Origin: Hirschia maritima DSM 19733
GTDB taxonomy: Bacteria > Pseudomonadota > Alphaproteobacteria > Caulobacterales > Hyphomonadaceae
Assembly: GCF_000378345.1 (NCBI RefSeq)
Contig: NZ_KB899545.1
Span: 248,001-312,000 of the forward strand
DNA: 64,000 nucleotides
Direction of reading: 5' to 3'
Positions 45,887 through 62,580 of this stretch are shown one piece after another. Numbering within the stretch: the stretch's first letter is position 1; each line of letters begins with the position of its first letter. The position numbers were made by a program, and so were the translations under genes. The notes beneath the pieces were generated by a model that was given only the letters and a program-made list of their open reading frames with translations, was not told the DNA's origin and ran no database searches.

Positions 45887-46507
45887 ATGAAGAAAACTTT
45901 TAGTCGGCATTCAGGTGTTGCTGCTCCCTTATTGATAGATAACATTGACACCGATCAAATAATTCCATCACGCGAAATGAAGACCGTTAGTAAAGAAGGT
46001 CTTGGCGAGGGACTTTTTGCTGGGTGGAGATATACTGAAGTAGGAGGGCGTGAGCCTAATCAGGAGTTTGTTTTAAACCAAAATTCGAAAATAGATTCGA
46101 CCATATTGATTGCCGGATCGAATTTTGGGTGTGGCTCTTCGCGAGAGCATGCTGTTTGGGCGTTATCAGAATACGGCATAAGAGTAATTCTGGCCGTTTC
46201 CTTCGGGGAGATATTTCACGCCAATTGCTTACGCAATGGAATTCTCGCTGTTAGCTTAAGTCAGGACAATATCGATGCATTAGCCAACGCATCGAACGAA
46301 GGTGAAATTACTGTTGACCTTGTTGAGCAGACTGTATCGGCGGCAAGTATAAAAGATTGGAAATGCGATTTTGAAATAGGTGCATATCCAAAGAAAATGC
46401 TGATGGAAGGGCTTTGTCCAATTGAGATGACTCTCACTAATGAAAAAGCAATAGATGCTTTTCTTCAAGTAGATAAAGAAACTCGCCCTTGGGTATACAC
46501 AGTCTGA
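45887..46507 (+). CDS. leuD: LeuD-type dehydratase small subunit
   Basis: Swivelling small subunit that pairs with the upstream LeuC-type protein. ATG 45887 chosen; 206 residues. Signature GSNFGCGSSREHA at 77-89, preceded by LLIDNIDTDQIIPSREMK, which contains the substrate-recognition loop, and followed by FGEIFHANCLRNGILAV. Two bases separate it from leuC. Terminator hairpin 28 bases downstream inside the convergent caiB-like gene. Confidence 0.92.
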   Translation: MKKTFSRHSGVAAPLLIDNIDTDQIIPSREMKTVSKEGLGEGLFAGWRYTEVGGREPNQEFVLNQNSKIDSTILIAGSNFGCGSSREHAVWALSEYGIRVILAVSFGEIFHANCLRNGILAVSLSQDNIDALANASNEGEITVDLVEQTVSAASIKDWKCDFEIGAYPKKMLMEGLCPIEMTLTNEKAIDAFLQVDKETRPWVYTV

Positions 46508-46534
46508 AGTCGAAATTTGATATGAAAAGAGTTT

Positions 46535-46566
46535 GAACCAGCAGTTTATTCTGCTGGTTCTTCTTT
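46535..46566 (+). terminator. Terminator with the caiB-like stop codon in its loop
   Basis: GAACCAGCAG (46535-46544) pairs perfectly with CTGCTGGTTC (46551-46560), then TTCTTT. The convergent gene's stop is the complement of 46546-46548, in the loop. Confidence 0.85.
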
Positions 46567-47754
46567 GTTTGCGGTGTCAATTAATCCGCTAGATTTCAAA
46601 GAATTGATTTGCTCCGGGGCTAAACCGAGGGATGCTAGGATTTCATCTGAATGTTCGCCGACCTCAGGTGGGTTTTGGAATAGCTCAGGGCGCTCATCAT
46701 TAATTGCTATTGGCAGAGCAGGTAGAGCTATTTCTCCACCATCCGGGATGGTCATGTCCAATAAACCGCCGCTCTCTTTCAGGTGTTCATCCTCAAACAA
46801 GTCTTCTGGTTTCATTATTGGAGCAAAAGGTAAGCCTGTGGTTTCCAATTTTTCCATAAGCTGTTTCTTAGTATAACTGCTGAAGAGTTCACGAAGTTTA
46901 GGAATGATTTCGTCGCGTCTAGCTACGCGATTATTGTTTGCAGCTAGTTCTTCATCTGACGCCCAGTCGGTAAGGTTGAAAGCATCACAAAACAGTTTCC
47001 ACTGACTATCTGAGACAACACCCACAAATACTTTTTCGTCGTTTTTAACGTCAAAAACATCATAGACTGCCCAAGCAGAGATACGTGCAGGCATTGGAGC
47101 TGCGGGCTTTCCGGTTACGGCATATTGTGCCATGTGCTGCCCCACTAAGAATACAGTGGTTTCATACAATGAAGCCGAAACGTGTTTACCTTTGCCGGTT
47201 GAGTGTCGTTCATTCAGGGCCGCAAGCACACCAATTGCTCCAAACATTCCCCCAGTCACATCGATCACAGATGAGCCAGCTCTTAGCGGACGACCAGGAG
47301 GACCTGTCATGTATGCAAGTCCCCCCATCATCTGAGCGACTTCATCTAAGGCAGTACGGTGAGAATAGGGCCCATTTAAAAAGCCTTTTTCAGAACAATA
47401 GATAAGCCGTGGGTTGAGTTTGGATAAGTCTTCATACCCAAACCCTAATTTATCCAATGCGCCTGGTCTGAAATTCTCAATGAACACATCTGCTTTTTCG
47501 ATCAATTGGAGAGCGATTTTTTTGCCTTCTTCCGATTTAAGATCAATCGCTAGGCTTTTCTTGTTTCTGTTGTACATTGAAAAGTAGCCAGAACCGGATC
47601 CTCGTAAACGGCGTGTTTTATCGCCTCCTACAGGTTCTACTTTTATAACTTCTGCACCAAGGTCAGCTAGCATGAGGCCGGCAGCAGGTCCCATGACCAT
47701 ATGCGTGAATTCTACAACTTTTAAGCCTGATAGGAGAGATGCTGAATTTGTCAC
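46546..47754 (-). CDS. Family III (CaiB/BaiF) CoA-transferase
   Basis: Moves CoA between acids through an aspartyl intermediate. 402 residues; motifs LKVVEFTHMVMGPAAGLMLA, DLGAEVIKVEPVGGD and FIENFRPGALDKLGFGYEDL. The catalytic Asp is likely Asp165 in SSVIDVTGGM. The family covers carnitine, formate, itaconate and many other acids, so the substrate is open. It is divergent from the HMG-CoA-lyase-like gene with a palindromic site between them. Confidence 0.92.
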   Translation of the reverse strand: MTNSASLLSGLKVVEFTHMVMGPAAGLMLADLGAEVIKVEPVGGDKTRRLRGSGSGYFSMYNRNKKSLAIDLKSEEGKKIALQLIEKADVFIENFRPGALDKLGFGYEDLSKLNPRLIYCSEKGFLNGPYSHRTALDEVAQMMGGLAYMTGPPGRPLRAGSSVIDVTGGMFGAIGVLAALNERHSTGKGKHVSASLYETTVFLVGQHMAQYAVTGKPAAPMPARISAWAVYDVFDVKNDEKVFVGVVSDSQWKLFCDAFNLTDWASDEELAANNNRVARRDEIIPKLRELFSSYTKKQLMEKLETTGLPFAPIMKPEDLFEDEHLKESGGLLDMTIPDGGEIALPALPIAINDERPELFQNPPEVGEHSDEILASLGLAPEQINSLKSSGLIDTANKEEPAE

Positions 47755-47813
47755 GGTTTTTCTCCCTAATAAAACCTTTCATACGAGGTTTTGATTGTTT
47801 CTTCTGATTTAAT

Positions 47814-47823
47814 TGATATATCA
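47814..47823. promoter_or_regulatory. Palindromic operator-like motif between caiB-like and hmgL-like genes
   Basis: TGATATATCA, a perfect 10-bp palindrome, extended as ATTGATATATCATTTG, in the 114-base divergent intergenic region; 60 bases from one start and 45 from the other. Confidence 0.6.
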
Positions 47824-47868
47824 TTTGAAGAAAAGGTCACTCCCTAAGAGCAAAAAAGGATAATAAAA

Positions 47869-48795
47869 ATGTCAGTTTCAGAGGTGTTGATTAGTGAAGT
47901 TGGTCCAAGAGATGGGCTTCAGAATTGTAAATCTATAATGCCTACTGATTTGAAAAAGCAATGGATTTCAGAGTTAAGTCGTGCGGGAATCAAGGAAATA
48001 GAAGTCGGTTCTTTTGTATCTCCAAAACTTTTACCGCAAATGGCCGATACTGGTGAAATTACCCGGCATTCTAAGACAATTGATGGATTGGAAGTCGCCG
48101 TTTTGGTGCCAAATTTAAAGGGAGCTCAACTCGCGATTGAGTCGGGGGCAGACAAAATTACCCTTCCCTTGTCTGTCAGTGAAACACATTCGATTCGCAA
48201 TATCAGACGTACTCACGATCAAGTAATTGAAGAGGCGGAAGCCATATCTGAATTGATCAAAAGTTTACCTGAAAATGATCGGCCTCACTTTGAAGGTTCT
48301 CTTTCAACTGCATTTGGTTGCACTCTTGAGGGGGCAATAGATGAAAGGGTAATATTGAGTTGCGCCGAGCGTCTTATGGGCGCTGGATGTGACGAGGTTG
48401 GGGTGTCAGATACAACAGGTTATGGTGATCCTGTTTCTATCAAAAAGCTGATCAAGGCAGTTCAAGGAGTTATTGGCGAGAAAAACCTAACAGGCGTGCA
48501 TTTACACAATACGCGTGGACTGGGGTTGGCAAACGCTCTGGCAGCTTACGATATTGGAATTAAAACTTTTGATTCTTCGCTTGGCGGATTGGGTGGATGC
48601 CCAACAGCACCAGGAGCGAGCGGCAACATTGTGACTGAGGATCTCGTGTTCATGTTTGAATCGATGGGCGTAGACACCGGAATTGACATGGATGCTCTTA
48701 TGAAGACGCGGGAATTGTTGTCGCAAGGACTTCCTGATGAGCCATTGTATGGTTTTACGCCATTGGCGGGATTGCCTTTAGGTTTCAAGTCTTAA
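47869..48795 (+). CDS. HMG-CoA-lyase-family (DRE-TIM) acyl-CoA lyase
   Basis: 308 residues. Metal site Asp15 (VGPRDGLQN) and His211/His213 (HLHNTRG); the HMG-CoA lyase signature GGLGGCPTAPGASGN contains Cys244 and is followed by VTEDLVFMFE. HMG-CoA lyase cuts HMG-CoA to acetoacetate and acetyl-CoA in leucine breakdown; the family also cleaves shorter or related 3-hydroxy-acyl-CoAs. With LeuCD and a CoA-transferase beside it and no leucine-degradation acyl-CoA dehydrogenase or carboxylase, a different acid is possible. AGGA precedes the ATG. Confidence 0.9.
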   Translation: MSVSEVLISEVGPRDGLQNCKSIMPTDLKKQWISELSRAGIKEIEVGSFVSPKLLPQMADTGEITRHSKTIDGLEVAVLVPNLKGAQLAIESGADKITLPLSVSETHSIRNIRRTHDQVIEEAEAISELIKSLPENDRPHFEGSLSTAFGCTLEGAIDERVILSCAERLMGAGCDEVGVSDTTGYGDPVSIKKLIKAVQGVIGEKNLTGVHLHNTRGLGLANALAAYDIGIKTFDSSLGGLGGCPTAPGASGNIVTEDLVFMFESMGVDTGIDMDALMKTRELLSQGLPDEPLYGFTPLAGLPLGFKS

Positions 48796-48829
48796 ACAAT
48801 TGTGTGATTGAATAGGGAATGAGGAACAC

Positions 48830-50254
48830 GTGAACCTAACTGCACTGATCACTCTTCTAATATATGCATTAATTATAGTTGGTGTTGGGTATTGGGCTGC
48901 TCGAAAATCGAAATCGGAAGAAGCGTTTTTACTTGGTAACCGTGAATTGGGGCCGATTGTTGCTGGCTTGGCTTATGCTGCTTCAAGCTCAAGTGCTTGG
49001 GTTTTGTTAGGGTTTTCTGGATTTGTATACGCAGTCGGTATATCTGCCTTGTGGATGGTTCCAGGAATACTGATCGGGTATGCTGCTGTATGGTTGTTTG
49101 CTGGTCCCGTATTGAGGAAGGCTAGTACTCAAAATGGTAATCTAACATTGACTGATTTTTTGTTGGAAGGTTCAGGGCGGAGAACAGGACAAGCAATTCG
49201 TGCGGCTGCTTCTCTAATGATTGCGTTCTGTTTTGCTTACTATGTAGCATCCCAATTTCAGGGGGCCGGAATAGCTTTGGATGGCTTGTTTGGTACTGGT
49301 CTCACGGGTGGAGTATTAATCGGCGCAATCGTTATTCTTGCTTATACGTTCTTTGGGGGATTTCTGGCGGTATCGATTATAAATACCTTGCAAGGAATGC
49401 TTATAGCGGTGGTTGCAGTGGTATTGCCATTGCTCGCATTCTTAGCTGTTGGAGGGCTTGATGGGCTGTTATTGGCTGCCGGTCAGCAAGGAAGCGCTGA
49501 ATATCATTCTACATTCTTCGATATTTCTGGAGGAAGGACGGGGTGGCTTGCGACCGGTTTTATCGTGGGGCTCTTTGCGACCGGCTTTGGCGCATTGGGA
49601 CAGCCTCATTTAACGGCTTGGATAATGGCCATAAAGGACGCTAAATCGCGCGTAATAGGAGCTGGCGTTGCGCTTGTGTGGGGGCTGGCAGTTTACACTG
49701 GAATGGCAATTTTAGGAATTGCTGCTCGAGTAATTATCGGACCAGATGTGGCGGCGGAGAGTGTGTTTTTTCAATTGTCTGAGCTTTTGTTGCCTAGTAT
49801 TTTGTCCGGAATTGTTATCGCCGCAACGCTGTCTGCAATTATGTCTACGGTTGATAGTTTGCTTCTGGTGTCCGGTGCTGCGTTGGGGCATGACCTTGGT
49901 GTATTTAGAAAGCTAAATATAAATAGTGTTCTGGGATACCGTTTAGGAATTTTGTTGGTATGCATTGCGGCAGCCGTAGTGACTGTGAGCTTTCCTGCAA
50001 CTATTTTCGACCGTACGTTATTTGCTTGGATCGCATTGGGGGCATCATTTGGACCTACTGTGGTCGTTAGAGCAATGGGATTGAAACCAGCTGGCCTAGC
50101 AGTTTTGCTTTCCATTGTGTTGGGCTTTACTTTTTCGTTGTTGTTTGAGTTTGTGCTCGATGCGGGGCCCGGGGGAGTTTGGTCAAGAATCATCCCTTGG
50201 TTATTTGCGCTGCTGCCGTTTTTACTAATTAAAGAATTGAAGAAGCATTCTTAG
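48830..50254 (+). CDS. Sodium:solute symporter (SSS family)
   Basis: Inner-membrane Na+-coupled importer of 474 residues and about 12-13 helices, related to PutP/PanF/acetate permeases. GTG 48830 after AGGA. Visible: YWAARKSKSEEAFLLGNREL, ASSSSAWVLLGFSGFVYAVG, AYTFFGGFLAVSIINTLQGM and GFGALGQPHLTAWIMAIKDA, plus AIMSTVDSLLLVSGAALGHD. Substrate unknown; lying 34 bases after the lyase gene, it probably brings in the acid that pathway degrades. Confidence 0.9.
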   Translation: MNLTALITLLIYALIIVGVGYWAARKSKSEEAFLLGNRELGPIVAGLAYAASSSSAWVLLGFSGFVYAVGISALWMVPGILIGYAAVWLFAGPVLRKASTQNGNLTLTDFLLEGSGRRTGQAIRAAASLMIAFCFAYYVASQFQGAGIALDGLFGTGLTGGVLIGAIVILAYTFFGGFLAVSIINTLQGMLIAVVAVVLPLLAFLAVGGLDGLLLAAGQQGSAEYHSTFFDISGGRTGWLATGFIVGLFATGFGALGQPHLTAWIMAIKDAKSRVIGAGVALVWGLAVYTGMAILGIAARVIIGPDVAAESVFFQLSELLLPSILSGIVIAATLSAIMSTVDSLLLVSGAALGHDLGVFRKLNINSVLGYRLGILLVCIAAAVVTVSFPATIFDRTLFAWIALGASFGPTVVVRAMGLKPAGLAVLLSIVLGFTFSLLFEFVLDAGPGGVWSRIIPWLFALLPFLLIKELKKHS

Positions 50255-50307
50255 AAAGAGTTAAATTGGGGCTTGCCGATTATCGATAAATATGTCTAAT
50301 CTCTAAA

Positions 50308-50317
50308 TGGTATATCA
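50308..50317. promoter_or_regulatory. Palindromic operator-like motif upstream of DUF1838 gene
   Basis: TGGTATATCA within CTAAATGGTATATCATTTT, ending 18 bases before ATG 50336; the 12-mer GGTATATCATTT recurs (reverse strand) at the 60976 site. Confidence 0.55.
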
Positions 50318-50335
50318 TTTTTTCGGGAGAGGATC

Positions 50336-51244
50336 ATGAATTCAATTATTCGTTCGGCCTTAGTCACTGCATCAATTGCGGCTATGTCCGCTTGCGCAAG
50401 TATTGGCGTGGCAAAAGAACCAGCACAGCTTAATCCAGACAATGCAGCTGATACACTGCAGATTGTTCGTAAAATATATTGTTCAACTGAAGACAATACT
50501 CCGATTGTCTATTCTTGGAATGGAAAAGCGTTGAGCCGTAAGCAAGGTGAAAAAGATGTTCATCTTTTCGATGTTGAGGGAATGAATATCCGTCAATGTG
50601 GAGAAATAGAAAAAGAAGACGGGACTAAAGGTTTTCATCTCGTTTCCAGAGAGATCTTGCTTTATTTAGATAAAGACACTGGGGAAGTTCTAAAAACTTG
50701 GGATAACCCTTGGACGGATGAAACAGTTGAAGTGATGCATGTTGCCAATGATCCAGTTAACTTCAAAATGTATGAAGTGGGTCGAGGTGGAAAGCCCGCT
50801 AAATGGCAAGGTGAAATGCATGGAAATTTCTGGTGGCAGCGCAACACTGTTCCGCTTTGGTATCCTAGTCCGCTGGCTAGCAAGTATGAAAAAGAAATTG
50901 GCGGAACCTATCATTCCACTGAACTTTTCAATTTCTTTGGTAATGTCGACGAATTGCTAGATCCTTCTACAACTGGCGTTGAAGCAACTGTTGGTTGGTC
51001 TCGCTTTTCTGATTGGCTTCCATGGATGAACATGAATGGACGCGAAGGGATGCTTTATATGCATACCGCAGGTTCAAAGCTCGCCAGTTATGATGACCTT
51101 TCAGAAACGATGAAAACAGAAATTGCTCAGAGTTACCCAGAATACAGTGCTCCGCCTCCAGTGGGTGATGATCGTAAAAATATGACAAGTTGGGAATACT
51201 ATGACCAAGTTTCGGAAGGGCATATTGAGTTGCCAAAACGATAG
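50336..51244 (+). CDS. DUF1838 family lipoprotein
   Basis: 302 residues, N-terminal signal with lipobox MSAC (Cys20). The body matches the DUF1838 pattern: IVYSWNGKALSRKQGEKDVH, LFDVEGMNIRQCGEIE, GFHLVSREILLYLDKDTGEV, VEVMHVANDPVNFKMYEVG and late GREGMLYMHTAG. The function of DUF1838 proteins is unknown; they are often found near catabolic and TonB genes in sphingomonads and relatives. Own operator-like motif upstream, terminator downstream. Confidence 0.85.
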   Translation: MNSIIRSALVTASIAAMSACASIGVAKEPAQLNPDNAADTLQIVRKIYCSTEDNTPIVYSWNGKALSRKQGEKDVHLFDVEGMNIRQCGEIEKEDGTKGFHLVSREILLYLDKDTGEVLKTWDNPWTDETVEVMHVANDPVNFKMYEVGRGGKPAKWQGEMHGNFWWQRNTVPLWYPSPLASKYEKEIGGTYHSTELFNFFGNVDELLDPSTTGVEATVGWSRFSDWLPWMNMNGREGMLYMHTAGSKLASYDDLSETMKTEIAQSYPEYSAPPPVGDDRKNMTSWEYYDQVSEGHIELPKR

Positions 51245-51272
51245 CGAAATTGATTCTTAAGATTCAAGTTTT

Positions 51273-51305
51273 AAGGCCGATGAAGAAATTCATCGGCCTT
51301 TTTTT
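51273..51305 (+). terminator. Intrinsic terminator after DUF1838 gene
   Basis: AAGGCCGATG and CATCGGCCTT with an 8-base loop, then TTTTT. Confidence 0.93.
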
Positions 51306-51465
51306 GTAGGTATTTCAATTTGCGTGTTGTTAACCGTTTCAACGACCAAATTAGTTATACCTTTTGAAAGAGTATACCATAAAGCGAATTTTTTACCAAT
51401 TTTGTTAATATTTCCGGACTATTTGGTAATTGTTTTGTCCGATACGGATAAATTCTTACAAAAAG
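51306..51465. other. Upstream region of first TonB receptor leader
   Basis: AT-rich, no gene. Contains GAGTATACCA (51370-51379), an 8/10 match to the palindrome family, then runs into the conserved leader. Confidence 0.45.
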
Positions 51466-51692
51466 GTGTGTGACATTTGGGTCGCTATACACCTTCAAAC
51501 TATCAAAATTACCCATAAGGGGGGCTTGCAATGCCAAAACTTTTCGTCAGAGTAAAAGATATACCAAATGATCTGATAGCTGATCGAGAGGTTTCCTCTG
51601 TTCAGACTGCAGGCGAAAAAACAATAGGGATTATTGCGGAGTTGGATCCGACTATCGGAGACACTCCAGTTAGGCTCGGAGGAGGACAGAGA
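51466..51692 (+). repeat. Conserved leader of TonB receptor gene, copy 1
   Basis: 227 bases nearly identical to 54188-54414, ending just before the ATG. It carries GCTATAC (51484-51490), a possible minus-10 box of the alphaproteobacterial type, GGGGGGCTTGCAA, AGATATACCA (51557-51566), the near-palindrome AGTTGGATCCGACT, and the ribosome site GGAGGAGGA. The copy has a full frame from ATG 51531 to the receptor, coding 54 residues, but the base changes between copies are mostly amino-acid-changing, arguing for an RNA or DNA element rather than a peptide. Confidence 0.75.
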
Positions 51693-54059
51693 ATGAAAAA
51701 GAAAATTCTTTTGACGACAGCTGCAGCAGTTGCAGCGTTTTCACACACACAACCAATTTTTGCTCAGGAAGTGGCGCAAACAGCTGCCGAGGAAGAAAAA
51801 TCGGTTCAATCTACAATTGTTGTTACTGGGCGTAAGAGAGAAGAGACTCTTTTGGAGGCCCCAATTTCAGTGTCCGCGTTTGATGCCGAAGCGTTGAATG
51901 CTGTTGGTGCAACAAGTGCACAAGACATTGCAGATCTAACACCAGGTCTTCAAATTTCAGGAGATTTTGGACGTACAGGAGAACGTCCTGTTATTCGTGG
52001 TATAGCCAACCTCCGATCTGAAACTCCACAACCCGTTGGTCTATTTGTGGACGGTGTCTACGTACGGACTGGGATTATTTCGTCTATTTTGGACAACGTG
52101 GAAAGAGTGGAAGTACTCAAAGGGCCTCAAGGGGCGCTTTATGGCCGTTCAACATATGGTGGAGTGATAAATTACATTACTAAGAAGCCTTCGGATGAAT
52201 TTGAGGGCGTTCTTAAGGCAACTTATGCGGAACATGATGAGGTTGAGTTCTCCGGTAATGTTTCAGGGCCTTTGTTTCCAGGTGTAAACGGTCTTATCGG
52301 CGGTCGTTATTATGAATACGGTGGTGAATACGAAAATACTGCTGCTCTATCTCAAGGGGCACGTGACATCGGTTCACAAAAAACGACTGCTTTCTATGGT
52401 GCTCTAAACATAGCTCCAGAGAGCACATCTGCATTTGACGCAAATATCCGTGCATATTATTCTGAGGACGAAGATGGTCAATTCGCTGGTCAGTTGTTTG
52501 ACTCAACAAATAACAACTCAGCTCGAGCTGGCGGAACTGCTTGTCCAAATGTATTGGCTACGCGTTCATACTATTGTGGTGTTGTAGAGGTTCCAGATTC
52601 AGTTGCAATTTCAACAGCTGTTGGTGCTGGTGAGGTTGTAAATCCGACATCGTTCTTTGCTCCTGTTACAGCGGCTTGGGATTTTAGTGCCGGATTGAAC
52701 AATGAAACAACTCGGATTTGGGGTGATGCATCGTACGACATTACCGACAGCCTAACTTTATCTTACATGGGTGGATTCACGAAGTCTGAGTCACACAACA
52801 TCGTAAACCAATCTTATTCAGAGGTGATAGCCGGTTATTCCTTTGGTCCTGCGCGTGCTTCGGCATGGGTAACCGACAGTCAAGGTGAGCGTGAATATTG
52901 GTCTCATGAATTGCGCCTTAATGGTGAGATCGGCGATAACATTGATTGGATCGCAGGTGTGTTTGCTTATGATGAAGAGCAAACGGGAATTGACCGAAAC
53001 ATTCTTGAAACAGCTTATGACTTCAGTGGAGGAAGAAGCAATCAAGAAGTTGCGGCTTATGGATCAATTGATTTCAGTGTGACGGATAATTTCGGAATTG
53101 GTTTCGAAGGTCGCTATTACAGTGAAGATGTTGGTGCTGATCTGTCATCAGATGGTGAAACAGGTGACGACTTAACTGAGACATTTGATGGTTTCACTTG
53201 GCGTGCAACAGCTGACTACACGTTCAACAATGGTGCTCTACTGTACGGTAGTGTTTCTACAGGTAACAAATCTGGTGGGTTTAACACAGCAATTAACCCG
53301 AATGATCCTGAAGAAGCTCCTTTCTTGAGCTTTGATGAAGAGAAAGTGACTCAATACGAAGTCGGTTTCAAATCAGAGTTATTTGATGGTCGCGGTAGCG
53401 TTACTGCAGCGGTCTATGCGATTGATCTTGTTGATCAACAATTAAGTCAGGTCGTTATTCTTCGCGAAGGGCAACCAAACCAGGTTCAAACAACAGTTGT
53501 TCTGAATGTTGGTGAAACTGAAATTCGTGGATTTGAGGGTGACTTTAATTTCAATGTGACCGATCAGTTGAAAATTGGTGCGGCGGTTTCATTGTCTGAC
53601 AATGAATTCAAGAAAGGCTCGGACCCAACGCAAGCTACGATTATTGATAATGGAGTAACTGATCCAGCAGACCCGAACTATGGTTCTTTGGTAGGGTTCT
53701 CAGTTCCGCGCGTATCTAAAAATTCCGGTACAGTCATGGCTAACTATGAGTTCATGGATACTGGCGAGTGGACGGGTAATCTTCGTGTGGATGGAGTGTA
53801 TGCATCCAGCCGTTACGCACAGGTTCATAACCTTCAAGAAACTGGTGAAAGTTTCAAGACCAATTTGAGACTTACTCTGGCTCATGAAAACTCAGGTACA
53901 GACATTGTGTTCTGGGGGCGTAACATCGGAGATGATGACACAGCTGGTAACGTGTTCCGTTATGTTGACCCGAATGATTTCAGATTCTTTGCGAGATCAT
54001 ATGTGTCCTTCTTGCCGCGCGGTCGTCAGTTGGGTGTAACTGTCCGGAAGTCGTTCTAA
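51693..54059 (+). CDS. TonB-dependent receptor, copy 1
   Basis: Outer-membrane active transporter, 788 residues from ATG 51693 (signal peptide MKKKILLTTAAAVAAFSHTQ; cut near FAQ). TonB-box region VQSTIVVTGRKREE, plug domain with LTPGLQISGDFGRTGERPVI and RVEVLKGPQGALYGRSTYGG, then a 22-strand barrel ending in Phe (LGVTVRKSF). The substrate is unknown; by neighbours it is probably a small organic compound. The longer frame starting at 51531 reads through the leader and is unlikely to be the true start. Confidence 0.93.
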   Translation: MKKKILLTTAAAVAAFSHTQPIFAQEVAQTAAEEEKSVQSTIVVTGRKREETLLEAPISVSAFDAEALNAVGATSAQDIADLTPGLQISGDFGRTGERPVIRGIANLRSETPQPVGLFVDGVYVRTGIISSILDNVERVEVLKGPQGALYGRSTYGGVINYITKKPSDEFEGVLKATYAEHDEVEFSGNVSGPLFPGVNGLIGGRYYEYGGEYENTAALSQGARDIGSQKTTAFYGALNIAPESTSAFDANIRAYYSEDEDGQFAGQLFDSTNNNSARAGGTACPNVLATRSYYCGVVEVPDSVAISTAVGAGEVVNPTSFFAPVTAAWDFSAGLNNETTRIWGDASYDITDSLTLSYMGGFTKSESHNIVNQSYSEVIAGYSFGPARASAWVTDSQGEREYWSHELRLNGEIGDNIDWIAGVFAYDEEQTGIDRNILETAYDFSGGRSNQEVAAYGSIDFSVTDNFGIGFEGRYYSEDVGADLSSDGETGDDLTETFDGFTWRATADYTFNNGALLYGSVSTGNKSGGFNTAINPNDPEEAPFLSFDEEKVTQYEVGFKSELFDGRGSVTAAVYAIDLVDQQLSQVVILREGQPNQVQTTVVLNVGETEIRGFEGDFNFNVTDQLKIGAAVSLSDNEFKKGSDPTQATIIDNGVTDPADPNYGSLVGFSVPRVSKNSGTVMANYEFMDTGEWTGNLRVDGVYASSRYAQVHNLQETGESFKTNLRLTLAHENSGTDIVFWGRNIGDDDTAGNVFRYVDPNDFRFFARSYVSFLPRGRQLGVTVRKSF

Positions 54060-54080
54060 TTTTTGCGATTTATAAAATTG

Positions 54081-54114
54081 AAAGAGACGAACCGTGTGTT
54101 CGTCTCTTTTTTTT
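54081..54114 (+). terminator. Intrinsic terminator after TonB receptor 1
   Basis: AAAGAGACGAA and TTCGTCTCTTT, 7-base loop, then TTTTT. Confidence 0.93.
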
Positions 54115-54187
54115 ATGTGTAAATTTCATACATAAGCCAAAAGCAATTTCACACTCCGTTATGCGAATAGGAATTAATAACATAAAT
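54115..54187. other. Intergenic stretch between receptor 1 and leader copy 2
   Basis: No gene seen; probably carries the upstream promoter part of receptor 2. Confidence 0.4.
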
Positions 54188-54414
54188 GTGTGTGATATTT
54201 TAGCTACAATGCACGTCAAAACTATCAAAACTTTCCACAAAGGGGGCTTGCAAAGTTATAACTTTTTGTCAGAGTAAAAGATATACCAAATGATCTGATA
54301 GCTGATCAAGAAGTTTCCTCTGTTCAGACTTCAGACGAAAATACAATGGGGATTATTGCGGAGTTGGAACCGACTATCGGAGACACTTCAATTAGGCTCG
54401 GAGGAGGATAGAGA
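54188..54414 (+). repeat. Conserved leader of TonB receptor gene, copy 2
   Basis: Same length as copy 1 (227 bases) with no net indel. GCTACAAT (54203-54210) may be the minus-10 box; GGGGGCTTGCAA, AGATATACCA (54279-54288) and the hairpin-like AGTTGGAACCGACT are kept. The ATG of copy 1 is lost and CAG next to the receptor start is TAG, so no leader peptide can be continuous with the receptor. Confidence 0.75.
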
Positions 54415-56913
54415 ATGAAGAAGAAATTTCTTTTAACGACAGCGGCAGCAGTAGCTGCATTGTCGAATACGCAACCAATTTTTGCCCAAGAGGCGGCAGC
54501 ACCGGCGGCGGCTGAAGAAGAAAAATCAATACAATCATCGATTGTGGTAACTGCACGTAAAAAAGAAGAATTGTTGTTGGACGCTCCTATTGCGATTTCG
54601 GCGTTTTCAGAAGAAGCAATTGATGCAGCTGGATATGTAGATATCGTCGACATTTCCAAAGCTACACCTGGTCTATTTGTGGAGCCATTCAGTGACTCTC
54701 TTGCGCGGGTAAACACGACACCACGTTTTCGTGGGATTTTCTTCACCAGCGGTAGCCCACTTCAGCAGACAGCGACTGTTTTCTTAGACGGCGTTTATAT
54801 GTCTAGTGGTGCGTCTACGATTGGGATCAACGAACTTGCAAGAGTTGAGGTCATCAAAGGTCCTCAATCAGCTTTGTTTGGCCGTAATACTTTTGCCGGT
54901 GCAATCAATTATGTATCAAAAGACCCAAGTGACTACTTTAAGGGGGAGGTTGATCTAACTGTTGCATCTAAGAATGAACAGAGTATCGCTGTCGGATTTG
55001 AGGGACCAATTACAGATATGTTGTCATATCGGGTAGGTGGCTCATACGATTCAAAAGAGGGACACTACGACAACGTAGGGAACCCTGGACAAAAACTTGG
55101 TGATGAATCTCAGTGGAACATCAATGGTACTTTGTTATTTGAACCAACAGATGACTTAAGAATTAAAGTACGCGGTTCATATCAAGAAATCGATGATGGT
55201 CCAGCAGCTGTTGTAAGTCACTTTGGTACACTTCAGCACAATTTTGGTGGTTTTGCTATTGATCCTGTATCAGGTGCAGTAAACCAAGCCGATTCACAAT
55301 CACCAGCATTTGGTAGTCGAACAGAATCAGTTTTTGCTGGAACAATTACTGTTCCTCCAGCTGACCGCATTGGTGTAAATTCAACTTTTGAAAACCTAGA
55401 GACATTTAGAAACGCAATATTAGCTGACGGTCGATATGCTACAACTGACGCTATAAACGATTTTGAATATAATCCGTTTAACACAAATGACTTCGGATTG
55501 AACTTAGATTCTACTCGTATTGCTGCAAACCTTTCTTGGGATATTACTGATACGATTACATTAGATGTTCAAGGTGGTTACAACGAAGAATCAAATGGTT
55601 TCTGGTGGGATTTCGATGCCAGCCCAGACCATTCATTCATGTCATTCAGTGCGCGTGACATTGAAGACTATTCTGCAGAAGCGCGTTTGTCCGGGCTATC
55701 ACTTAACGATAAGTTGAGTTGGTCTGTTGGAGCGAGCATTACTGATATTGATATTACCAGCATTGGTGGTACTGCTAGTTTCTTCGGTCCTACGATCTTG
55801 TTCTCAGATATCTTTAGATCAGACCCGTTTCATGGTGGAGCAACAACAACAGGTTATTTCGCGTCTTTAGATTATGAGATAACAGATGATTGGTCAGTAA
55901 CTGTTGAAGGCCGTTTCCAAGAAGATGAAATTCGTGATGACGATGTGAATGCAAGTCTAACGACTCCTATTTCACCATCCACAATTGAAAGTTTCTTGCC
56001 ACGCCTTACAGTGCGTTGGGAGCCAAGTGATTCAACTACTCTCTATGCTACATATAGTGAAGGTAACTTACCTGGTGGATTCAATGCTGAAGTTGCTGAG
56101 CTTGATGCTGCACAGATAGCAGACTTGAATTCTAAAGTAAGTGGCGTGGGCGTAACGTTTGACGAGGAAACTCTTAAAAACCACGAGCTTGGATGGAAGC
56201 AGGAAATGTTTGATGGCCGCGTGGCTTTCAACACAGCTGCGTTCTACATGAAACGTGAAGATGAGATCTTCTCAGCATTTGAGTTGGTCATCGACACTAC
56301 GCCTGGAGCTCCAAACCCATTTAGAACTGTGTCATTTACAAACAATGGTGCATCAACTGAAATTTATGGTGTTGAAATTGACGGTAGAGCATCGATAACT
56401 GACAATCTGACCTTTGAAGGTTCTTTCGCATATATCGATGCTGAGATTGCTTCCTTCCCAGAAGGAACGAGTTCAGGTGATTTCAACGATATCTTTGGTG
56501 AAGCTGCAAATGTTGCTGGTCAACAAGCACCGCGTTTCCCACCTATGTCAGCTTCTGCTGCATTGAGTTATGAGCGAGATGTGTCAGGTTTTGGACCGTT
56601 TGATTCTATGTTTGCACGTGGTGACGTATTCTATACGGATGGTTTCTACAGCAGTAATGCGAATGTAGCTGAAACTGATACAGCAACTGATGTGAACATT
56701 CGCGGAGGACTGCGCAATGATAACTTCGGTGTAGAGCTGTTCGTAACGAACTTGTTTGAAGAAGATGTACCAGCTTCTGTTCAAAACTTCGCTGATACTT
56801 CATTTGGAACAAGGTTGCAGCCGGGTGGATTCTTTAACTTTAGTCGTGAAGGAAACCGTCTTGGTCTAAGAGACAAGCGTCAGATCGGGGTTCGTCTAAA
56901 CCTCACATTCTAA
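54415..56913 (+). CDS. TonB-dependent receptor, copy 2
   Basis: 832 residues. Signal peptide near-identical to copy 1 (MKKKFLLTTAAAVAALSNTQ), TonB-box-like SIQSSIVVTARKKEE, plug with FFTSGSPLQQTATVFLDGVY and RVEVIKGPQSALFGRNTFAG, barrel with terminal Phe (VRLNLTF). The barrel is much less similar to copy 1 than the leader and signal peptide are. Outer-membrane TonB-driven uptake; substrate unknown. A terminator lies just downstream, then a CpcT-like gene within 20 bases. Confidence 0.93.
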   Translation: MKKKFLLTTAAAVAALSNTQPIFAQEAAAPAAAEEEKSIQSSIVVTARKKEELLLDAPIAISAFSEEAIDAAGYVDIVDISKATPGLFVEPFSDSLARVNTTPRFRGIFFTSGSPLQQTATVFLDGVYMSSGASTIGINELARVEVIKGPQSALFGRNTFAGAINYVSKDPSDYFKGEVDLTVASKNEQSIAVGFEGPITDMLSYRVGGSYDSKEGHYDNVGNPGQKLGDESQWNINGTLLFEPTDDLRIKVRGSYQEIDDGPAAVVSHFGTLQHNFGGFAIDPVSGAVNQADSQSPAFGSRTESVFAGTITVPPADRIGVNSTFENLETFRNAILADGRYATTDAINDFEYNPFNTNDFGLNLDSTRIAANLSWDITDTITLDVQGGYNEESNGFWWDFDASPDHSFMSFSARDIEDYSAEARLSGLSLNDKLSWSVGASITDIDITSIGGTASFFGPTILFSDIFRSDPFHGGATTTGYFASLDYEITDDWSVTVEGRFQEDEIRDDDVNASLTTPISPSTIESFLPRLTVRWEPSDSTTLYATYSEGNLPGGFNAEVAELDAAQIADLNSKVSGVGVTFDEETLKNHELGWKQEMFDGRVAFNTAAFYMKREDEIFSAFELVIDTTPGAPNPFRTVSFTNNGASTEIYGVEIDGRASITDNLTFEGSFAYIDAEIASFPEGTSSGDFNDIFGEAANVAGQQAPRFPPMSASAALSYERDVSGFGPFDSMFARGDVFYTDGFYSSNANVAETDTATDVNIRGGLRNDNFGVELFVTNLFEEDVPASVQNFADTSFGTRLQPGGFFNFSREGNRLGLRDKRQIGVRLNLTF

Positions 56914-56957
56914 ATTTATGAAGTTATGATTTGTAACCATATATTCATTTAGTATTT

Positions 56958-56994
56958 GAGAGAGGCGGTATGATTTCGTCTCTCTCTTTTTTTT
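56958..56994 (+). terminator. Terminator/attenuator between TonB receptor 2 and CpcT-like gene
   Basis: GAGAGAGGCG pairs with CGTCTCTCTC (one wobble), then TTTTTTTT. Only about 17 bases separate it from the next ATG, so the following gene may be expressed by read-through. Confidence 0.88.
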
Positions 56995-57010
56995 GGGAAA
57001 AAAATTCGAT

Positions 57011-57931
57011 ATGAAATTAGATCGATTTATTGCTTTAGGATTATTTGTTGGTGCTTGTTCCACTGCACCAATAATGGCTGATGAAGCTGAGGAAACGGTA
57101 GAAGCTCCGGGGTGGTTGAAAAAGGATTTTCAGGAGTTTTCTACTCTACTTGCCGGTCGATGGGATAATGAACGTCATCGTTTTTTTGCTGAAGCAGCGG
57201 GTGTTGAAGGTGAGACTTTAGCACCTCATGTCCATATAGAAATCACTGCAGGCGAAGAAACAAAAAATGAAGAGATCTATGCATTTTCTTCTGTAGATCA
57301 GAAATCTGAAACACCGAATACAGCTTTGTCTCATGCAATTAGAATCTCTGAAGACAAAATGTCGATTACGCATTCAATTTCAAATTCTGAAACTGAAGGA
57401 GGTGGGTGTGTCATCAATTGGAGCCGCCGCGGCGATCAATTTGAAGGTAAAGGAACGGGTGCAAACTGTTCTGAGTATTTTGGTCAAAGTAAAGAGATAA
57501 AAAATGCAATCATTTCAACAACTCTTTCCGACTCGGAGTTTTGGGTTTCAACACAAGTAAACAATACAAATGTTGAAACTCGCATGCGAAAAGCGCGACC
57601 TTTTGAATGTTGGGCTGCAGTATTACGTGGTGTCGAACACGGTGACAGCGGTAAAGGAATAAATGATTGGTATTTCAAACGCGGCGTGAAAATACATGAT
57701 CAGGGCGGTGTAGCCGAACTGGAAACCGACGAAAATCCTGCTCGAACAATTCGACTTCGCTTACGTGATGTTGATTGGACCTATGGAAACAATCGTCCTT
57801 CGTTGACGCTATACGTTATGGAAGGCGAAGATGATCGCGCTGTGTCATATGCATGGGCCGAGGGTGGTGCAAACCGTATTGGAATTAATCTTCGTTGGAT
57901 ACAATTAAGCTGTACCAACCAAGAAAAATAG
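57011..57931 (+). CDS. CpcT/CpeT-like lipoprotein
   Basis: 306 residues from ATG 57011. Lipobox VGAC (Cys16). The body resembles CpcT/CpeT chromophore lyases: FSTLLAGRWDNERHRFFAEA at the start and GGGCVINWSRRGDQFEGKGT with following NCSEYFG. In cyanobacteria these attach bilins to phycobiliproteins; non-phototrophs carry relatives of unknown role. Placed directly after TonB receptor 2 and convergent with an Lrp gene. Family call is moderate. Confidence 0.7.
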   Translation: MKLDRFIALGLFVGACSTAPIMADEAEETVEAPGWLKKDFQEFSTLLAGRWDNERHRFFAEAAGVEGETLAPHVHIEITAGEETKNEEIYAFSSVDQKSETPNTALSHAIRISEDKMSITHSISNSETEGGGCVINWSRRGDQFEGKGTGANCSEYFGQSKEIKNAIISTTLSDSEFWVSTQVNNTNVETRMRKARPFECWAAVLRGVEHGDSGKGINDWYFKRGVKIHDQGGVAELETDENPARTIRLRLRDVDWTYGNNRPSLTLYVMEGEDDRAVSYAWAEGGANRIGINLRWIQLSCTNQEK

Positions 57932-57939
57932 ACATGGTG

Positions 57940-58392
57940 TTAGAGGGGAAGTTCAGTTGTATTTTTAATACATTCCATTGCGAATGTTGCGCTGACATCT
58001 GAGATTTCCATATCGGCGATAATCTGTTTGTAAACACGGTCGTAATCAGCGACCGTGTTTACAACTATTTTCAATAGATAATCGACTTCGCCTGCCATGC
58101 GATAAAATTCTACGACTTCCGGAATGTTTTTTGTCTTTTCCGTGAATCGTTCAAGCCATTCCGAAGAATGGTTATTTGTTTTGATTGATACGATAACGGT
58201 TTGTCCCAACCCAACAGATTCAGGATCAACGATAGCAACACGGCCGCTAATGATTCCCGTTTCTTCCAAGTGTTTCACACGTCGCCAACACGTATTTACT
58301 GACACATCAACTTTTGAAGCAATATTCTCCAAAGATAGAGTCGCATCTCTTTGAATTAATCTCAGTATTTGTTTGTCGGTTGCGTCAATCAT
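57940..58392 (-). CDS. Lrp/AsnC family transcriptional regulator
   Basis: 150 residues from ATG 58392 (longer frame to 58428 unlikely). N-terminal helix-turn-helix (MIDATDKQILRLIQRDATLS, LENIASKVDVSVNTCWRRVK) and a C-terminal RAM effector domain (FYRMAGEVDYLLKIVVNTVA). Such regulators respond to amino acids. Divergent from a PLP enzyme gene with 112 bases between starts, so that enzyme is the likely target. The stretch ATATCATTTTTTCG at its start also occurs at 50312-50325. Confidence 0.92.
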   Translation of the reverse strand: MIDATDKQILRLIQRDATLSLENIASKVDVSVNTCWRRVKHLEETGIISGRVAIVDPESVGLGQTVIVSIKTNNHSSEWLERFTEKTKNIPEVVEFYRMAGEVDYLLKIVVNTVADYDRVYKQIIADMEISDVSATFAMECIKNTTELPL

Positions 58393-58504
58393 ATCATTTT
58401 TTCGTATTTTATCGAATTTTATCACCAAATAAAAAGTATAACTATTGTTTTGTTGAAATGCAATTTGAAAGGAGATGATTCATAATGTCAGCGGGAGATT
58501 TTTT

Positions 58505-59551
58505 ATGGCTGATACTATTTCTTTAGAATCCAGATTGGATTTAAATTCTCGTTTTGACAGTTTGTCCAATCTCATAGGGCGGACACCTCTTTTGGCAGTG
58601 CATGTGCGCTGGAAGGGAGAAGAACGAGTGGTTTATGCTAAGGCTGAACATTATAGTTTAACTGGGTCGATTAAAGACCGTATGGCATATAATATTCTAA
58701 AGTGTGCTAGCGCTTCTGGTGAATTGAAACCGGGTGATATGATCGCGGAAGCTACAAGTGGCAACGCTGGTATTTCAATGGCCGCATTGGGGCGGGCTCT
58801 AGGCCATAAAGTTTGTATTTTTATGCCTGATTGGATGAGCAATGAACGGAAAGCTCTACTTAAATCAATCGGTGCAGACCTGCATCTCGTCAGCAAGGAA
58901 GAGGGCGGGTTTCTAGGTTCTATTGCTGCAACTGAAAAATTAGCTGCGGAACGTGACGATGTTTTCTTGCCGTGTCAGTTTAGTAACCGCGATAATTGTG
59001 GCGCACATGAAGTAGAAACTGGCCAAGAATTATTGAAACAATTGTCGTCTATTGGGAAGTCACCAGATGGTTTTGTAGCTGGCGTAGGAACAGGTGGCAC
59101 AATAATGGGAGTTGGACGCGCGTTACGAGAAGCAAATGCGAAAGTTTCAATTCATCCGTTAGAGCCGTCTGAATCGCCAACTCTGACAACTGGCTACAAA
59201 GTTGGTGCACACAGAATTCAAGGAATCTCCGATGAATTCATACCTTCGATCGTAGAATTGGACAAAGTCGATGACGTAATTGCTGTTAGCGACGGTGATT
59301 CAATTATTATGGCTCAAAAACTGGCATCTCAACTTGGCTTGGCCGTGGGTATATCATCTGGTGCCAACCTGCTGGGTGCTCTTAAGGTACAAGACAAGTT
59401 AGGCTCGAACGCAATCGTCGCAACAGTTTTTGCTGACGACAATAAGAAATACCTTTCTACAGACTTGGGTCGCGAAGAATCGGTAAAGCCAGAATATATT
59501 GCCCCGAATGTAGAGTTGTTGGGATTTGAAGCTATTCAATGTCCAGCTTAG
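58505..59551 (+). CDS. PLP-dependent cysteine-synthase-family enzyme
   Basis: 348 residues. ATG 58505 chosen (GGGAG upstream; 58475 has no merit). Fold-type II PLP enzyme: Lys57 in [10 protein letters not shown], Asn loop [15 protein letters not shown], phosphate loop [13 protein letters not shown], and [13 protein letters not shown] near the end. This family includes cysteine synthase, cystathionine beta-synthase and desulfhydrases. The Lrp neighbour suggests amino-acid-linked use rather than core cysteine synthesis. Ends in a perfect inverted repeat shared with the oxidase gene. Confidence 0.88.
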
Positions 59552-59560
59552 CTGGACATT
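59538..59560. repeat. Perfect inverted repeat holding two convergent stop codons
   Basis: AATGTCCAGC, TTA, GCTGGACATT: perfect 10-bp arms. The plus gene stops at TAG (59549-59551) and the minus gene at the complement of 59548-59550. No T-run follows in either direction. Confidence 0.85.
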
Positions 59561-60942
59561 AGATCCATAACTTCAAACGCAGCACGATCTCCTGATTCCA
59601 TCGCGCCTTCCATGCCTGTGTGGAGGTGCGATGTGTGTTCACCAGCAAAGTGTAATCGACCTGCAGGGGTCGCCATGTTTTCTGCAATTTTGGCGGCTTG
59701 GTTTGGTGACCAGTGCATATAAGCTCCACCGCTCAATGGTTGGTTCTTATCCCATCTAATAACTTTAGAGGCTGTAGTTTTTGCACCTCTTAGATCCAAC
59801 ATAGTTTTCTCGGCGAGATCTTTCCATTCTTGATCGCTAACGTTGGGCTTTGTGCCAGTTCCATTAATCCAACACGTAAGAGAGACTGTTTCTCCATTTG
59901 CGTTGCGAACAGGAAAAACTCGTTCGATAGGTGTATCCGTCCACATCGTCGTCGGAAGACCATCATTCTTCCAGAATTCATTTTCTACGGTAAGATGCAC
60001 TTGCTGTATTTGTGTGTATGGTAGTGAATTAATGCCTTCACGTGTTGCTTCATGAAGTGGGGCGTTGATTTTTACTTTTTTCATGACTGGAAACGGCAAT
60101 GTCGATATCACGAATGAGCCTCGAATAGTGCCTTGGTTGGTGTGAACATCAACTCCATTCAGGTCGACGTCTATCCCTTGAACCATTGTGTTGGTTTTTA
60201 TCGTCCCATCATCTAAACTTTTTGCCATGGCTTCTGGTAGGCGTTGGGCTCCGCCTTCAATTTCATTCGAGCTGCCTCCTTGGAACGACTGGCTGAATAT
60301 TACTAATGAACGCCAGACATTCAGCATGCTGTAAGTGTCTAGTGAGTTTGCATTTAAGGCAATATCAATCTGCTTCAAGCTTTGCTCATCGAATCCCGAT
60401 TGTTCAAGAAATGATTTGGCAGAAAGGTCGCTCTGAGCCGCTAATTCGCGCCATGCGTATTCATCTTCAAGTGGGTTTTTTTGAGATGCAGCTACAAAAA
60501 GTGCGCTGTCAGGTGTAAATCTCTTTAATGCATCTGGAAAAGTGTTGTGCGGTGATGCCGCCCAATCCGAAGCATTTAAAAGATCGCCGTTGATCGCTAG
60601 CGTTTTGTCTCTTGAACCACCAGGGGCAGGCGGAACAATGTTTAAACCAAGATCATCTGCTGTGGACAATATTCTCGCATATGTACTGCCAACCTGTTGG
60701 CCTCCAGCTTCTGGACGTCCGGGGACATCATCAAGAGTATACATTCGACCACCGATGCGATTGCTGCCCTCCAGAACAAGAACTTTGGCTCCCTCACTTG
60801 CCAAAAGGCGTGCGGCGTTCAACCCTGCTAATCCGGCACCGAGAATGATAACATCCGCATGGAGTGACTTCTTTTGAGCAGGAGCGCAAGACAATGTTGC
60901 AAGTGTACTACCAGCGATCAAAAATTGGCGTTTCGTCAACAT
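59548..60942 (-). CDS. Exported flavin-containing amine oxidase
   Basis: FAD enzyme oxidising amines or amino acids. 464 residues from ATG 60942. The leader [19 protein letters not shown] could be a lipoprotein or Tat-like signal (KRQFL, Cys19). Dinucleotide motif [20 protein letters not shown] at ~30-50 with [10 protein letters not shown]-terminal FAD motif [20 protein letters not shown]. Convergent with the PLP enzyme and divergent from MFS, with an operator-like palindrome between. Confidence 0.88.
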
Positions 60943-60975
60943 GTTTGCTTGACCTCTCTCGACATACCGATGAAA

Positions 60976-60985
60976 TGATATACCA
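60976..60985. promoter_or_regulatory. Palindromic operator-like motif between oxidase and MFS genes
   Basis: TGATATACCA (reverse TGGTATATCA), in AAATGATATACCATTAG; the reverse strand reads CTAATGGTATATCATTT, a near-copy of the 50308 site. Confidence 0.6.
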
Positions 60986-61041
60986 TTAGACCTCATAATA
61001 GACAGTCCGCCAAGGGCAAACGTAATTTTTGGGAGGAAGTT

Positions 61042-62580
61042 TTGGGTTTTAAAGCAGAATTTAGTGAAGGATGGCCAGTTTTGACCGCGGCTGCTGTCGG
61101 TGTCGGATTGGGTCTGTCCCCACTACCGTTTTATACCATTGGAGTATTTATTCCTCCTTTAATGCAGGAATTTGCTCCATTGGGGTGGTCGGTAGGCGAT
61201 ATTTTAAACGCACTTGCAATATATACATTTGGAGCATTTGCTGCAGCACCCATAATTGGTCTTCTTGCTGAAAAATTTGGAGCTCGTAAAGTTGCTCTGA
61301 TCTCAATTGTAACTTTCAGCCTCTCCATGATGGCGCTTTCCTTAAATACAGGAAACAAAGCGTTGTATATTTTCCTGTGGCTTATGCTAGCGTTTACAGG
61401 TGCGGGAACCTTACCCATCACCTTCACAAGGCCAGTCGCAAATTGGTTTGTGAAGAACAGGGGAATTGCGTTGGGAATTGCGTTAATTGCAACAGGGATG
61501 TTTGGTGCTTTAGCCAAGTTTTTCGCGCAATTCATTGTTTCCAATGAGGCATTTCATTTTGTTGGTGGTTCAGGTTGGCGGTCAGCTTATGTTTTAATTG
61601 GACTTTTGCCTCTTTCTATTGCGCTTCCTATGTCTTGGCTGAGTTTGCGGGATGTGAATGATGAATCAGCCAAAGATGCAAACATTTCAAACTTCAAATA
61701 TCCAATTCTAGGTGTGTCTTTAGTGGGAACATTAGGGCTGATATGGATTGTTGTTCAGCAAGTGTCACCATTGGTAGAAGCAAATGGGCTTCGCCTAGAA
61801 TATTTTATGGCATACTTTTTCTGTGCGGTAATTCTAATACCTGTAGGATTGATGCTTTGCTTGGATATTAAAAAGGCACCTCCCGAAGCATCCGCTAACC
61901 AGTCGATGAAAATTGAAGGATTGTCTTTAATGGAAGCGATGAAGGGCTGGCGTTTCTGGTTGTTGGCTGCTTGTTTCGTTCCAATTTCATATTCTGTAGG
62001 GGCTATTATTCCTAATATTGAGCGTGTCCTGACTCACAATGGAATAGGTATGGATGAAGCAGTGGGGCTTGCCACTCTAACAGGACTTGCGGTTCTAAGT
62101 GGAAGAATTATCGGTGGTTACCTTATCGATCGGTTCTGGGCACCAGGCGTAGCTTTTGCTTTCTTGGCGTCTCCTGCTTTTGCTCTATGGTTGTTGGCGC
62201 AGCCAGGTGTTGATGCAAACACTGCAACCATTGCCATCTTGATGATTGGTTTTGGTGCTGGTGTTGAATATGATTTCATGGCTTTCATGATTTCAAAGTA
62301 TTTTGGGATGAAAAGTTATTCTGCAATTTACGGTGCGATCTATGGTTTCTTCGCACTTGGCGCGGGATTAGGCCCATCAATCATGACCGATATCGCTGAT
62401 GGTCGCGGTGTTCATTTCCTTGGGCTGGACCTCGGTATTTTACCGGGTAAAGATTGGGCTTATACCCTAACATCAGCTGCGATCATTTTGTTTGTTGCAA
62501 CGGTACCATTGCTCTTCCTAGGAAAATACCAGTTTGATCATGAGAAGAAGGACAAAACGGATTCTGAATCGGCTGATTAG
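61042..62580 (+). CDS. MFS transporter (oxalate/formate or MCT-like)
   Basis: 512 residues, 12 helices. TTG start with GGAGG (61033-61037). Visible are GLLAEKFGARKVALISI (the loop 2-3 motif), FTRPVANWFVKNRGIALGIA and LAVLSGRIIGGYLIDRF. The long central loop and the layout recall the monocarboxylate / oxalate:formate group of MFS. Likely imports or exports an organic acid. Terminator follows. Confidence 0.88.
   Translation: MGFKAEFSEGWPVLTAAAVGVGLGLSPLPFYTIGVFIPPLMQEFAPLGWSVGDILNALAIYTFGAFAAAPIIGLLAEKFGARKVALISIVTFSLSMMALSLNTGNKALYIFLWLMLAFTGAGTLPITFTRPVANWFVKNRGIALGIALIATGMFGALAKFFAQFIVSNEAFHFVGGSGWRSAYVLIGLLPLSIALPMSWLSLRDVNDESAKDANISNFKYPILGVSLVGTLGLIWIVVQQVSPLVEANGLRLEYFMAYFFCAVILIPVGLMLCLDIKKAPPEASANQSMKIEGLSLMEAMKGWRFWLLAACFVPISYSVGAIIPNIERVLTHNGIGMDEAVGLATLTGLAVLSGRIIGGYLIDRFWAPGVAFAFLASPAFALWLLAQPGVDANTATIAILMIGFGAGVEYDFMAFMISKYFGMKSYSAIYGAIYGFFALGAGLGPSIMTDIADGRGVHFLGLDLGILPGKDWAYTLTSAAIILFVATVPLLFLGKYQFDHEKKDKTDSESAD

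Follow-up and report, generated by a model that had tools for sequence, protein, structure and literature searches.

Two genes for TonB-dependent receptors (TBDTs) with strongly different barrels lie in tandem in Hirschia maritima DSM 19733, each behind a leader resembling that of the other, which raises the question of how two such receptors came to have a common start section and whether the leader itself is a regulatory element. The window, i.e., the whole stretch of DNA that was analyzed, comprises 64,000 nucleotides of contig NZ_KB899545.1 (positions 248,001 to 312,000, forward strand); all coordinates refer to it, and all features lie on its plus strand. Receptor 1 (788 amino acids) is encoded at positions 51693 to 54059, with its ATG at 51693, and receptor 2 (832 amino acids) at 54415 to 56913. 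Both proteins score above the cut-off for PF07715 and PF00593, the Pfam Plug and barrel families, which identifies them as TonB-dependent receptors; the orthologs of receptor 1 align from the signal peptide onwards. As stated in an earlier note on this DNA, the barrels differ strongly; the amino acid identity is 26 to 27% in the barrel and 30% over the whole proteins. A Shine-Dalgarno sequence, GGAGGAGG, can be read in front of each gene (51678 to 51685 and 54400 to 54407), and a terminator scan placed terminator-like hairpins after the DUF1838 gene (51273 to 51300), after receptor 1 (54080 to 54110), and after receptor 2 (56958 to 56986). Given the first of these hairpins, the leader of receptor 1 probably begins its own transcription unit, and since each receptor gene is followed by a hairpin of its own, the two genes probably form separate transcription units. 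The minus-10 box that had been proposed before the leader is represented by one weak candidate per copy, read from the sequence (TATACA at 51486 to 51491, TACAAT at 54205 to 54210), but these candidates do not align with one another, and neither was found by the promoter scan.

The two leaders, 51466 to 51692 and 54188 to 54414, lie 2722 bases apart and can be aligned along all 227 positions with no indel; the coordinates and the lack of gaps are as reported before. They match at 196 of the 227 positions (86%) and differ at 31, and the match is far above chance (blastn E value of 4e-73; the next match in the genome has an E value of 0.35). The description of the copies as nearly identical applies to the core of the 5′ leader at 51536 to 51692, where 12 of 157 positions differ, but not to the 70 promoter-proximal bases at 51466 to 51535, where 19 (27%) do. 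Within this strongly diverged part, two 12-base blocks are kept (51497 to 51508 and 51520 to 51531). The core contains a run of 40 bases identical in both copies (51546 to 51585), which is unremarkable for copies that have diverged to this extent (P = 0.32 by chance). A repeat search showed the direct repeat to be longer than previously described, extending from 51458 to 51757 and from 54180 to 54479 (approximately 300 bases, 85% identity) and thus reaching into the signal peptide; over the first 27 receptor codons, 16 of 81 positions differ between the copies. Among the upstream regions of the genome's TBDT genes that were checked, none besides those of this pair contains GGGGGCTT, GATATACC, or GGAGGAGG.

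To describe the divergence along the repeat, a likelihood scan was applied to non-coding sites and coding third positions. Three segments fit better than a single rate (likelihood ratio of 35; 0 of 200 permutations), and the maximum-likelihood solution features a low-divergence tract of 173 bp at 51538 to 51710 in copy 1, corresponding to the same columns at 54260 to 54432 in copy 2, with approximately 7% differences and a rate of 0.075, compared to rates of 0.28 on the promoter side and 0.57 at the downstream coding third positions. Edges within 2 lnL range from 51520 to 51553 on the left and from 51691 to 51728 on the right, i.e., from the start codon to 12 codons beyond it; 3 of the 11 third positions of codons 2 to 12 differ, and all of the following 7 do. 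Synonymous sites of the signal peptide differ at 12 of 19 positions (63%), with a dS of 1.38, which is near saturation, and a dN of 0.07, whereas the leader core is 7.6% different (92% identical).

The relatives of the individual gene parts reveal where the common section ends. Specifically, residues 1 to 45 of receptor 1 (signal peptide and linker, 51693 to 51827) are 82% identical (37 of 45) to the corresponding part of receptor 2 (residues 1 to 46, 54415 to 54552, from the protein alignment) and only 37% (15 of 41) to the receptor 1 ortholog of genome G136; taken separately, residues 1 to 25 give 88% versus 40%, and residues 26 to 45 give 75% versus 31%. For residues 46 to 62 the order is reversed, with 65% identity between the two receptors and 94% to the ortholog, and this continues in the segment after residue 62 (37% versus 68%) and in the barrel (about 26% versus 61 to 67%). 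Different parts of receptor 1 thus track different relatives, and these mosaic identities indicate that one receptor gene took over the start section of the other in place of its own, up to a break near residue 45. Our firmest result, as judged from sequence comparison, is that a 5′ cassette of promoter region, leader, signal peptide, and linker became common to two old receptor lineages by recombination. Of the options left by the earlier note, the mosaic bears out that of a recombination or gene-conversion tract, with one start section in front of unlike barrels, and the shared block takes in the signal peptide and the linker as well. Orthologs of receptor 1 with 65% identity are present in two genomes of the same family (G136 and G397, which match Henriciella and Hyphomonas MAG records), and further ones with 53 to 54% in an Alteromonadaceae genome and in Pseudocolwellia; the nearest relative found for receptor 2 is only 51% identical (G356). 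The leaders of these receptor 1 orthologs and of the G356 gene are unrelated to the shared leader. A first search of genome contigs with receptor 1 alone as the query gave no match.

The most probable explanation, to which we assign a probability of roughly 0.6, is that a 5′ cassette some 360 bases long was moved by homologous recombination between tandem receptor genes and that its core was later re-homogenized by short-tract conversion. The cassette would comprise the promoter region, a 5′ leader of about 190 nucleotides, the signal peptide, and the linker up to the TonB-box region, and would have been copied between two receptor genes that now stand in tandem, the direction of copying being itself putative. 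Receptors of two lineages would then be produced behind one type of start section and would probably be co-expressed. With the synonymous sites of the signal peptide near saturation, the exchange of the cassette must be old rather than recent, and an old exchange combined with a weakly diverged leader calls for either later gene conversion or purifying selection. The last step may have been a gene conversion over a short tract, with the two direct repeats as partners, that evened out the 173-bp core once more and would account for a divergence of 7% there as opposed to 28% on the promoter side and 57% at downstream third positions.

Alternatively, purifying selection on the leader could account for the last step. 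The leader would then be a lineage-specific cis-acting RNA or operator, serving as a structured element, as the target of a regulatory RNA, or as a binding site for a protein and exerting the same control on both receptors since the cassette was shared long ago; we regard this as a tentative possibility. It agrees with the difference between the core and the adjoining synonymous sites, with the two 12-base blocks kept in the diverged promoter-proximal part, and with a low-divergence tract that may stop at the start codon: as the right edge is indistinguishable from the start codon, a constraint on the leader only fits about equally well. Background from Caulobacter points in the same direction, as sRNAs repress TBDT mRNAs there, including some whose leaders are long (RusT targets, PMC11005374; PMC6237742), the pairing of ChvR with chvT taking place within the leader (PMC6237742), and leaders of TBDT reporters reach up to 269 nucleotides (PMC11005374). 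In view of these examples from the same receptor class, the length of the present leader is ordinary, and control by an sRNA is possible by analogy; in contrast to the Caulobacter cases, however, the shared leader sequence is absent from the other genomes searched. A possible 13-bp RNA hairpin at 51538 to 51593, with one pair changed in a compensatory manner (C>T at 51545, G>A at 51586) and a single wobble substitution, would also fit a selected leader, but it is statistically unsupported: pair covariation amounts to this one compensatory pair, equal to shuffles (258/500), in a comparison of two sequences with low power.

The structural evidence beyond this hairpin speaks against a selected leader. 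Copy 1 folds better than its own shuffles (z = -2.5), whereas copy 2 does not (z = +0.46). Under a substitution null for the consensus fold of the hairpin, the core, and the whole leader, folds as good were obtained in at most 2.5% of the cases when starting from copy 2 and in 17 to 28% when starting from copy 1, and with this mixed outcome the consensus fold was not taken as support. Pairing of the Shine-Dalgarno sequence does not exceed that in 31 further TBDT genes of the genome, nor that obtained when the leaders are shuffled, and the 40-base run is of a length that chance provides. Of the palindromes previously assigned to the leader, the core holds only one, of about 10 nucleotides (51640 to 51653), and it is not kept in copy 2. 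Searches for homologs gave a consistent picture. The genome contains two copies of the leader only, despite its 45 TBDTs (blastn and covariance model); none was detected in two congeners, 105 family genomes (covariance model), 398 genomes of the order, and 385 of the class, these samples overlapping, and the covariance model run over the own genome, the genus, and the family returned just the two known copies. The cobalamin riboswitch forms a long leader before btuB-type TonB receptors, but neither this nor any other riboswitch family matches here; comparison with Rfam gave no leader match near the gathering score, the weak matches falling mostly on terminator hairpins. The suggestion of a regulatory RNA thus found no support in further copies, known families, fold, covariation, or Shine-Dalgarno pairing, and similar leaders at two genes are by themselves no evidence of one. 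In a further-reaching reading, the 157-nucleotide leader would be a novel cis-regulatory element specific to this lineage, which selection preserved as the promoter flank and the synonymous sites of the signal peptide diverged around it; a receptor of another lineage would have acquired it along with the signal peptide, bringing both receptors under one control. This reading appears doubtful. As no structural or sequence signature of leader function could be shown, we lean towards gene conversion; it is favored over purifying selection by a small margin as the cause of the low leader divergence, the data do not separate the two, and two copies in one genome are insufficient as proof of conversion.

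The remaining explanations are far less probable. A recent tandem duplication of the whole receptor gene followed by fast diversification of the barrels would account for two genes in tandem on the same strand with a direct repeat 2722 bp apart, and a very recent duplication had been named in the earlier note as part of what would refute its reading. Such an origin is very improbable, since each receptor resembles a relative in another species (65% and 51% identity, respectively) more than it resembles its neighbor; barrels of about 27% identity and the nearly saturated synonymous sites of the signal peptide exclude a very recent event, and the mosaic refutes duplication of the whole gene. Similarly, there is hardly any likelihood that the leader is coding, whether it extended receptor 1 at the N terminus or specified a leader peptide. 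An ATG at 51531, preceded by a G-rich run, does open a 54-codon frame into receptor 1, but in copy 2 this ATG is AAG and stops occur at both ends of the frame. The differences in the receptor frame comprise 8 nonsynonymous ones, 1 synonymous one, and 1 stop (dN of 0.08, dS of 0.03), so that, in agreement with the earlier note, the leader is not kept as a peptide; a product would, moreover, lack any Pfam or NCBIfam match and would bury the signal peptide. The longest open reading frame of receptor 1 begins at this ATG, in frame through the leader (51531 to 51692), which is probably a false start, and automatic annotation may consequently add a false N-terminal extension of 54 amino acids. Least probable of all is a twofold insertion of the cassette as a mobile or repetitive element: apart from the existence of two copies nothing suggests it, no further copy was found in the genome or in plasmids, phages, and viral contigs, and the block fades into homologous signal-peptide codons instead of showing a sharp insert end.

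The transfer of the cassette by recombination and its proposed later conversion resemble gene conversion between tandem paralogs and the sharing of promoters and leaders in the local high identity between old, divergent neighbors and in the mosaic gene ends; the difference is that here the non-coding start section and the signal peptide are common, and not the coding core. In the invertible promoters and SusC-SusD shufflons of Bacteroides, one start section can in principle serve different receptor barrels. The present repeats are direct, however, with one start section per gene and no inverted repeats flanking a segment; the pair shows no sign of switching, and no site-specific recombinase was seen among the open reading frames of 46000 to 62000, which were read and not all scanned against families. 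Many alphaproteobacteria possess dozens of TBDTs, and little is known of how new receptors are integrated into expression. The locus offers a small, clear example of a start section, including the signal peptide, moving as one block between receptor lineages, by which a shared control can be gained.

The receptor pair is part of a cluster at 46546 to 62580 that includes, with names partly read from the sequence, a CoA transferase, an HMG-CoA lyase-like protein, an SSS symporter, the DUF1838 protein, the two TBDTs, an Lrp/AsnC-like regulator, a PLP enzyme, an FAD amine oxidase, and an MFS protein. Two congeners lack the DUF1838 gene and the PLP enzyme, which flank the pair, and at the thresholds applied neither has a close relative of either receptor, so that the cluster is accessory. 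In L071, too, an FAD amine oxidase (34% identity) is found close to the ortholog of receptor 1. Upstream of receptor 1, at 51434 to 51452, an imperfect inverted repeat, TTTGTCCGATACGGATAAA, was noted, and the starts of receptor 1 orthologs are preceded by TTGTCCGGACAT (L052/L069, L070), TTGTCCGTACAT (L071), and TTTGTACGTACAAA (L072). These TTGTCCG-type palindromes are not part of the leader, and a search of the window for the strict pattern showed no enrichment; TTTGTCCGATACGGATAAA could serve as an operator of receptor 1 rather than of the leader. Similar palindromic motifs were observed, at approximate positions, upstream of relatives of receptors 2 and 1, namely AAATGATATAAC...GTTATATCATTT (L049:1380-1450) and CAAATGGTATATCATTTG (L052:1415-1440), and possibly represent a common receptor operator in the family.
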